A DNA stretch of 46,997 bases from Candidatus Cloacimonadota bacterium. GTDB lineage: Bacteria; Cloacimonadota; Cloacimonadia; Cloacimonadales; Cloacimonadaceae. The stretch spans positions 1 through 46,997 of the forward strand of contig JAAYWB010000046.1 of NCBI GenBank assembly GCA_012516855.1, written 5' to 3'. The notes beneath the pieces were generated by a model that was not told where the DNA came from, ran no database searches, and saw only the letters and a list, made by a program, of their open reading frames with translations. The position numbers and the translations under genes are program-made. Below, piece by piece: positions 36,561 through 38,340 of the stretch (position 1 is its first letter; each line of letters starts with the position of its first letter).

Positions 36561-36598
36561 GTATAAATTCTCACCCAAATTTTCAAATCGATATCACT

Positions 36599-36672
36599 TG
36601 TCACAGAGGTCTTAACTGTTTATAGGGTGGAGAGATAGATAGGACTGGCTTTAGACTGTGTCACAGTGGTCT
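36599..36672 (+). repeat. Putative left end with two transposase-binding-like sites
   Basis: TGTCACAGAGGTCT (36599-36612) and TGTCACAGTGGTCT (36659-36672) are direct repeats 60 bases apart. A direct repeat of TCGATATCAC lies just outside (36588-36597) and just inside (36692-36701). Paired subterminal sites are usual at ends cut by MuA/TnsB-type enzymes. The exact terminus is inferred. Confidence 0.6.
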
Positions 36673-36771
36673 TTGGACGTTTTTGGACGTTTCGATATCA
36701 CGATTCCTTCAATTTTGCCCTCAATTTAAGGTATTTTCAGAACATCAAATTTTTTGAAATAGTTTACAATT

Positions 36772-37500
36772 TTAATAGATCCGTAACTGAAGTGCCAGGG
36801 GGCCGATCATCGTTAACCACTGACTCTGATCAGCGTCTATAAACTCGATCCGGTAGTCTTTATTGAGAGGTTGGAGGGCAACTCCCCTGCGGGCCTCATC
36901 ATACTGTATCCTTTTCAGAGTAATGCCTGTCTCGTATCTGACGGCACAGATTTTCCCGTCCAAACCATCCCAGGTGATCTGCTTTTTGATGAGGACAATA
37001 TCCCCGTGCAGGATCTGCGGCTCCATGCTTTGTCCATTGATTCGGAAGGCCACGTAGTTATCCGTACCGAAAGGAATGTAGCGAGTGGGAACTTCGACTG
37101 ATTCCGCCGGCTCCATATCCTCGGGAACTTCCATGGGTGATCCAGCGGATATTTCCGCTACGATCGGGAAGATTGAGGTACGCACGTAAGTGGTATCAAA
37201 ATCATTCACTAAGACCGGTTTACCATCCACAATCTGGACTTTCTTGGTAGTCCTGATATCATCTCCAAGCTCCCAGGGAGCCAGGATGAACATACTGCCT
37301 TCACCTCTTAACAGCCAGTTCACATTCACTCCGGAATCGATCAATCTGGCCAAGAATTGAGGGTCGGGAAACCGCTCATTGTTCTTGTAACGGTCCAGAG
37401 AATTGGCAGAGATGCCAAACTTTTCGGTAAACTGGTACTGCTTCAATTTCATTGCTTTAATCAGCATTCCCAGCCTGCTGCCGATATCGTTAGTGTCCAT
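36772..37500 (-). CDS. LexA/S24-type self-cleaving phage repressor
   Basis: The 242-residue protein starts at 37500 with AGGAGG four bases upstream; the frame runs 32 codons further back without a good site. The N terminus (about 5-65) is an XRE-type helix-turn-helix (LKQYQFTEKFGISANSLDRYK). The C-terminal S24 peptidase domain has a cleavage site Ala119-Gly120 (EISAGSP), nucleophile Ser158 (NGQSMEP) and general base Lys196 (GITLKRI), 38 residues apart as in LexA and UmuD. All are intact, so DNA damage with RecA should inactivate it. It is divergent from the early operon, as in lambdoid and many Mu-like phages, unlike the Mu c repressor itself. Confidence 0.93.
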   Translation of the reverse strand: MDTNDIGSRLGMLIKAMKLKQYQFTEKFGISANSLDRYKNNERFPDPQFLARLIDSGVNVNWLLRGEGSMFILAPWELGDDIRTTKKVQIVDGKPVLVNDFDTTYVRTSIFPIVAEISAGSPMEVPEDMEPAESVEVPTRYIPFGTDNYVAFRINGQSMEPQILHGDIVLIKKQITWDGLDGKICAVRYETGITLKRIQYDEARRGVALQPLNKDYRIEFIDADQSQWLTMIGPLALQLRIY

Positions 37501-37563
37501 TATTCCTCCTAAAAGGTCATTTTCTGCTTGACCTTTTGCCGTATGGGTAAGATTATGCATCCG

Positions 37564-37596
37564 TAGACAAGATAAATTGTCTAATCTTTTTGTCAA
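37564..37596 (-). promoter_or_regulatory. Repressor promoter with palindromic operator
   Basis: The minus strand has TTGACA (37596-37591), a 16-base spacer and TATCTT (37574-37569). The perfect inverted repeat TAGACAA-N6-TTGTCTA (37564-37583) covers the -10. Binding there by the repressor would give autoregulation. Operator identity is inferred from symmetry and position. Confidence 0.6.
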
Positions 37597-37684
37597 TGCT
37601 TATTTATATAGTTGTGTTTCGGTGGCGGATTTTTCCGCTCGTATCAGATAGTTTTCATAAGTCGCTGGAAAGCGCAGAAAGGAC

Positions 37685-37713
37685 TTCCCAAGTTATTGCG
37701 ATGCAGTTATATA
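37685..37713 (+). promoter_or_regulatory. Possible early promoter of the element
   Basis: TTCCCA (37685-37690) and TATATA (37708-37713) are 17 bases apart. Transcription would start near 37720, just ahead of the GGGGAGG and ATG at 37744. The -10 is reasonable and the -35 a 4/6 match. Confidence 0.45.
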
Positions 37714-37743
37714 GCACCCAACAATAACTAAGGGGAGGCGCTT

Positions 37744-38340
37744 ATGAAAGCGACTACTTACAAGCCCGGAGAAACTTGGGTCAAGGATGACCTCTGTGAC
37801 ACACTGACCTCTGTGACACGTGTCACACACCCTTCCAATCGGAGAAAAAAGCCGCCGATGCTGATCAGTAGATATGTTGAACGCTGTGACAGATCGCCAG
37901 GACAAAAAAAGGCTACCACTGTGACAGATTATCCGACCTCTGTGACACGCCACCGGAGTGGAAGTGTCACAGTGGTCTTACCGGTACCAGAGAATTATTG
38001 GCAGAGGCTGAACATGAGCAAGAACAAGATCAGGTCAGTCTGGCTGACCGTGGAGCGGGCGGCGGAACTGATGAGCTGCTCCACCCGCACCGTATGGCGC
38101 TATATCAAGCGCAACCGAATCGAAGTGCACAAGCATCTGGTCGAGCAGGATGGCTACAAGGTTAGGAAGACCTTCCTGCTGACCGAGCCTTCCTTATATA
38201 TCAAGGAGATGGCAGACTGCCAGGCCAGGAACCTGGTGCCTGCCGGCTTTATTGAGATCACTCTCAAGGTGGATGGCAAAGACCTGCACAGCGCTTTGAT
38301 CTACAAATACAGCGAGGAGGACAAGCATGAGCATCTATGA
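37744..38340 (+). CDS. HTH DNA-binding protein, first gene of the early operon
   Basis: The 198-residue frame opens at an ATG with GGGGAGG five bases upstream. A second credible start, ATG 38014 with GAGG six bases upstream, gives a 108-residue protein with the whole HTH (LTVERAAELMSCSTRTVWRYIKRNRIEVH, here residues about 100-128). That helix-turn-helix resembles excisionase or MerR-type HTH_17 domains. The first 90 residues are of low complexity in feel, with repeated 'TSVTR' and 'CD' strings. They are encoded by the array of TGTCACAG sites, so they may be non-functional leader or may not be translated at all. It occupies the place of ner in Mu and probably regulates early transcription. Its 3' end overlaps the transposase gene by 14 bases. 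Confidence 0.65.
   Translation: MKATTYKPGETWVKDDLCDTLTSVTRVTHPSNRRKKPPMLISRYVERCDRSPGQKKATTVTDYPTSVTRHRSGSVTVVLPVPENYWQRLNMSKNKIRSVWLTVERAAELMSCSTRTVWRYIKRNRIEVHKHLVEQDGYKVRKTFLLTEPSLYIKEMADCQARNLVPAGFIEITLKVDGKDLHSALIYKYSEEDKHEHL
37789..37988. repeat. Array of TGTCACAG(A/T)GGTC sites
   Basis: Good copies occur at 37789-37801, 37806-37818 and 37935-37947 (reverse), a one-mismatch copy at 37915-37927 (reverse) and one at 37975-37988 (forward). Partial copies lie near 37821 and 37884. The same motif forms the left end of the element. This matches the position of the Mu internal enhancer between repressor and early genes, which the transposase contacts. Confidence 0.75.

Follow-up and report, generated by a model that had tools for sequence, protein, structure and literature searches.

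A single 13-bp sequence, TGTCACAG(A/T)GGTC, lies both inside the left end of a Mu-like transposable element of Candidatus Cloacimonadota and in an array in the control region of the same element, and the two sets of sites change together across a family of related elements. Because pair and array change together, we suggest that one reader serves both, and comparison of the sequences implies that one regulator touches both the transposon end and the gene switch. We consider it probable that a winged-helix-turn-helix (HTH) protein encoded by the element itself recognizes the 13-bp sequence, with the array acting as its operator and the pair tying in the left end.

The stretch of DNA that we analyzed (the window, 46,997 nucleotides) is one entire contig and ends within the element. 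We set the left terminus by comparing the window with two ~33-kb copies, A and B, that lie at different places in a closed related genome (G021). The element begins at position 36562 (TATAAATTCTCACC...) and ends in ...GTGAGAACGCATA; its right end lies at position 4640 of contig C74, where the final 4.6 kb of the element share 96% identity with copy A. The matching duplications outside these two ends likewise place the left terminus at 36562. The 5-bp target duplications at the non-homologous insertion sites were CAGGG for the window element and AGAGA and GTGAA for the two copies in G021. With a DDE transposase of the MuA-like type carrying Mu-transpos_C, a MuB/TniB ATPase, the 5-bp duplication and downstream head and packaging genes (terminase large subunit, MuF-like head protein), the element has the features of a Mu-like transposable phage (saltovirus). 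No fused N-terminal HTH was found in the TnpA of the window. The third core gene, tniX, follows tniB in nearly every element, including sister families and the 4-kb compact form, and the sole Pfam match of its product is a marginal one to TrmB. Directly after the MuF-like head gene, the C-terminal two thirds of BrxL (BREX) are encoded on the minus strand (46047-46997) and run off the contig; since homology to copies A and B ends at 46018, a BREX locus may sit in the variable region of the element.

Table 1. Features of the element and their positions in the window
Feature	Positions	Strand	Remarks
Target-site duplication, 5 bp, CAGGG	36557-36561		Second copy at G000:C74:4641-4645
Left end of element	36562-36720	+	Block conserved in relatives, flanks unrelated
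End-type (transposase-type) site L1, terminal	36569-36588	+	TCACCCAAATTTTCAAAT
13-bp site a	36599-36611	+	37 bp inside terminus; exact copy
13-bp site b	36659-36671	+	97 bp inside terminus; exact copy
Second left end-type site	36698-36713	+	TCACGATTCCTTCAAT
XRE/S24-type repressor	36772-37500	-	
Palindrome TAGACAAGATAAATTGTCTA	37564-37583		Overlaps repressor promoter; candidate repressor operator, differs from 13-bp motif
ORF with array and HTH	37744-38340	+	5' leader with array, 37744-38010; 3' HTH domain, 38011-38337
Array site 1	37789-37801	-	Exact copy
Array site 2	37806-37818	-	Exact copy
Array site 3	37821-37833	+	Degenerate here (TGTCACACACCC); intact plus-strand site in relatives
Array site 4	37879-37891	-	2 mismatches
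Array site 5	37914-37926	-	1 mismatch
Array site 6	37935-37947	-	Exact copy
Array site 7	37965-37977	+	Exact copy
HTH protein domain	38011-38337	+	109 aa; proposed reader of 13-bp sites
DDE transposase TnpA, MuA-like	38327-40390	+	PF09299, 1.8e-15; phrog_310, 4e-82
TniB/MuB-like AAA ATPase	40401-41099	+	Adjoins transposase
TniX	41108-41644	+	Universal third gene of the core; two winged-HTH domains

A preliminary description of this DNA had placed the motif at 36599 and 36659 and in an array at 37789-37988, and we recovered all of these, as six exact and several degenerate copies. At up to two mismatches there were 10 matches in the window against 1.8 expected, and 0 of 100 shuffled sequences reached 10; by arithmetic, ~0.003 exact copies would be expected by chance in 47 kb, and a genome-wide scan found the exact motif confined to this element. 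The array sites, spaced by 17, 15, 58, ~32, 24 and 30 bp on mixed strands, are more conserved than the leader around them, and the 13-bp site is not palindromic. The earlier statement that the motif marks the left end was correct in that the pair lies within the conserved left-end block and incorrect as to the terminus itself, which lies outside the first copy (Table 1).

The array does lie inside an open reading frame, as had been noted, and it occupies codons 16 to 78 of that frame. A strong Shine-Dalgarno sequence (aaggggaggcgcttATG) precedes the start, and upstream of the HTH the frame is open in ~50 relatives, including all of the phage-type ones, and the leader outside the sites had a pN/pS of 0.43, indicating moderate constraint at the protein level, compared with 0.12 for the HTH part. 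We therefore rejected an accidental opening as the origin of this reading frame. The array of copy B (G021:C1, near 264324-264656) contains an in-frame duplication of 144 bp that adds three sites and leaves the frame open.

The preliminary description had called for a comparison with related elements, which we made by gathering ~50 of them through transposase searches (viral scans with other transposases added few). Nearly all have two or three left-end sites and 4 to 12 sites in the control array at conserved offsets, and ~45 share the layout while using at least six site sequences, the classes being TGTCACAG[AT]GG, TGTCAAAGTGC, TGTCACACCGA, TGTCCAAGTGG, TGTCCAAGTCC and TGTCCAAGCG. When the consensus of each array was sought in the left 165 bp of its own element, the best match had a mean of 0.36 mismatches of 11, against 2.12 after permutation (n = 42, P = 1e-4); the permutation takes the relatives as independent and so overstates the evidence, although the site classes nonetheless recur in distant lineages. 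The left-end site matched its own array exactly in 29 elements and with one difference in 11 more, so that 40 of 42 agreed to within one mismatch (the termini of B3 and L089 used here are approximate, and the short left-pair distance of L016 spans an assembly gap). That left-end and internal sites share one motif thus holds for the family as well as for the window. Two of the contigs bearing the family's elements (L012 and L019) are filed as Armatimonadota and Izemoplasmatales and are possibly misbinned Cloacimonadota contigs.

A different repeat behaves as a transposase site would. The repeat TCACGATTTTTTCAAA (TCAC..TTTTTGCAAAT in relatives) is found on both ends, several times and in inverted orientation at the right end of the window element, and is nearly constant over all site classes. 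From its placement, we regard the TCAC..TTTTTTCAAA repeat, and not the 13-bp motif as once supposed, as the likely site of the transposase; its near constancy also suggests that the 13-bp site is recognized by a different DNA-binding domain. A lack of inverted copies of the motif at the right end had been named beforehand as refuting the original proposal. The right 4.6 kb of the window element contains none, nor do the right ends of the two G021 copies, of L014 to L016, L086 and L087, or of one A3 and one B2 element. The class motif is absent from right ends of A1, A3 and B2 elements, and from a right end in the genome holding the A2 elements, an end that is not joined to a particular element. 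Given the mapped termini and these motif-free right ends, we reject the motif as the terminal inverted repeat. The proposal of an enhancer built from end-type sites is thus better reversed, with regulator-type sites built into the left end.

Which protein reads these sites was approached through trees. Site class changes five times on the HTH tree, the minimum, with a single change between the A and B superclasses; the corresponding numbers are 6 and 2 for the transposase, 7 and 3 for TniB, and 10 and 7 for TniX. The repressor tree is nearly as good as that of the HTH (6 and 1), and because both genes are physically linked to the array and the left end, part of this agreement reflects linkage. 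In L018/L024 and L090/L091 the transposases group with B-class elements, yet the motif is A-class and the HTH A-type, and in general the HTH recognition helix tracks site class. All eight array sites of L081 have changed from TGTCACAG to TGTCAAAG, along with a change of the HTH recognition helix from RTVWRYxxx to RTVWRRVNS; its repressor helix does not differ from that of its relatives, and its transposase is 82 to 86% identical. The cleanest contrast is with L013 and L017, which have a closely similar transposase, TniB and repressor helix and differ from L081 in array sites and HTH helix. Counting against the HTH as reader, the left pair of L081 is of the old class and its array of the new. 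The genome of L081 also contains L082, an element that lacks the HTH and whose sites show the same change.

The HTH protein is homologous to N-terminal domains fused to sister transposases (hhalign, 95%). Its structural model is confident (pLDDT, 90) and has among its best matches by TM-score to the target the DNA-binding domain of the Mu repressor (0.65), alongside Xis and BldC, at poor Foldseek E values (0.39 for 1qpm). Profile searches describe it as Cox-like, with Cox and Xis as weak matches, and its predicted fold is the small wHTH_17-like one of Cox/Apl-type regulators. In the fused HTH-transposases L143 and L106, the N-terminal HTH is followed by an in-frame array of short DNA repeats (CEP; AEPECGTKS repeats), an echo of the array-in-gene design.

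We infer the following mechanism. The free-standing winged-HTH protein, a relative of the HTH fused to the N terminus of sister transposases (in MuA, the position of the enhancer-binding domain I-alpha), would recognize the 13-bp site (TGTCACAGAGGTC). The six or seven sites within the first codons of its own gene would form an operator array, at which the protein, bound downstream of the early promoter, would throttle its own operon, including the transposase. It would also bind the left pair, which lies between the end-type transposase sites, and looping over ~1.2 kb may join array and pair, so that early-gene expression and the readiness of the left end would be set by one regulator. At the left end the protein might either help or hinder transpososome assembly. 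A short conserved segment at the N terminus of the transposase (window 38327-38450), present in phage-type elements with a separate HTH and absent from HTH-less compact elements, is a possible docking segment.

Eight compact elements (L011, L012, L014 to L016, L082, L086 and L087) also count against the HTH as reader, having kept both site sets with neither HTH nor repressor. The smallest of them, at 4.0 kb, encode only transposase, TniB and TniX and retain the left pair and the array. Comparison of compact pairs suggested that the sites are still constrained, with some ascertainment bias in the P values (L086/L087, P = 0.002; L015/L016, P = 0.004; L011/L012, P = 0.05). No A-type HTH was encoded by the host genomes G004, G014 and G026. 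Two readings would account for these elements, an HTH supplied in trans by other phages or a core protein that reads the site as well. L011, L014 to L016, L082, L086 and L087 are 4- to 12-kb transposons built on the same core, several with target duplications (L086 and L087 had no matching one); among their genes is one in L015 for an AAA ATPase that scores to IetA.

Transposase-less derivatives with matching 5-bp duplications (L201, 3.6 kb; L208, 464 bp; L209, 5.0 kb; L213, 1.3 kb) lack the array and retain either one left-end site or the two, in some cases with a mismatch. This suggests that movement does not need the array in cis, that the array probably has a regulatory role, and that the pair is a component of the left end. 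An array acting as an obligatory cis enhancer is not favored by these derivatives. L209 recurs in another species as L211 (99% identical); the right termini of L202, L205, L210 and L211 are unconfirmed. The MITE-like L208, L201, L209/L211 and L213 are mobilized by this family, and left-end matches number more than 100 across 35 of the 50 family genomes.

Were the transposase TnpA to read the 13-bp sites through an N-terminal domain, the pair would be extra end sites and the array autorepression sites or an enhancer. The sites do persist where the DNA-binding proteins encoded are TnpA, TniB and TniX, the left-end sites of the derivatives look like part of the mobilized end, and site a directly follows a TATCAC half-site. 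Against this, no right end examined has a copy of the motif, the end-type sites do not co-vary with it, and the transposase tree fits the site classes less well than the HTH tree. Moreover, L082 (class TGTCAAAG) and L015 (class TGTCACAG) have TnpA proteins that are 91% identical, and no convincing residue in the conserved domains is common to L082 and L081; a search for a transposase signature of the A2 class gave nothing convincing. We judge TnpA an unlikely reader, and the co-variation does not favor the earlier suggestion that the transposase itself regulates the early operon. A host factor would account for sites kept without the HTH, and, of the accessory proteins predicted to bind DNA, TniX alone is common to compact and phage-type elements. 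The recognition helix of TniX (SRQWVFVYLEAL) is nearly invariant over all site classes, though, its tree requires seven A/B changes, and several site classes occur within single genomes (G001, G018 and G020), as is not expected from a single host factor; we give this pair of candidates a poor chance. Binding by the XRE/S24 repressor, which would hold the early operon off and mask the left end in lysogeny, has a precedent in Mu (PMC3820752), and the repressor gene sits between the two site sets and has a tree that fits the A/B classes. Its helix region does not differ among the window, L013, L017 and L081 despite the changed L081 array, it is absent from compact elements, and the site is nonpalindromic while a separate palindrome overlaps the repressor promoter, all of which makes it a very improbable reader. 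The HTH protein remains the reader that we prefer.

In Mu, the termini are TG, and the lysogeny switch is linked to transposition through a single region to which the repressor and the transposase both bind. The window element resembles Mu in its MuA-like transposase, MuB-like ATPase and 5-bp target duplication, in a control region ~1 kb in from the left end, with the repressor on one side and the early genes on the other, and in a winged HTH with a predicted Mu-repressor-like fold. It differs from Mu in its terminal sequence, TATA, in having the array inside the coding sequence of the HTH gene and two array-type sites in the left end only, and in having the HTH as a separate gene in place of domain I-alpha, the part of the transposase itself through which the Mu enhancer (IAS) is bound. 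Compact 4- to 12-kb cargo elements with a core of three genes, among them those for a DDE transposase and a TniB-like ATPase, recall Tn7/Tn5053-type transposons; unlike in those, no TniQ was found, the right end is a multisite array of another motif, and the left end has regulator-type sites. The proposed mechanism has parallels in the Mu repressor, which binds both operator and ends (PMC3820752), with MuA I-alpha (PMC3820752, PMC3362531), and in Apl/Cox/RdfS (PMC7498355, PMC11963761), Apl of phage 186 binding both att and pR-pL (PMC7498355). As with Apl (186) and Cox (P2), one small winged-HTH protein would act at multiple sites in the attachment region and the early control region (PMC7498355, PMC11963761), here as judged from co-variation. 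Those proteins are recombination directionality factors that serve tyrosine recombinases, whereas the partner here is a DDE transposase, and the sites of Apl, Cox and BldC are direct repeats one helical turn apart, in contrast to the mixed orientation and irregular but conserved spacings seen here.

We tentatively entertain the wider view that an enhancer-binding domain of the MuA type became a separate regulator, with its array in its own coding sequence and its sites built into one end. Compact cargo transposons and transposase-less derivatives, which retain sites but not the gene, might then respond in trans to phages of this family, whether resident or infecting, as satellites tied to helpers by an end-and-operator code that both share. 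In this family a short site, recognizable by eye and present in at least six versions that co-vary, seems to carry the link between end and operator, which would make the specificity, swapping and evolution of end-operator coupling directly testable, and the family offers natural experiments in its fused and separate HTHs, its HTH-less elements and its derivatives with left-end sites only.
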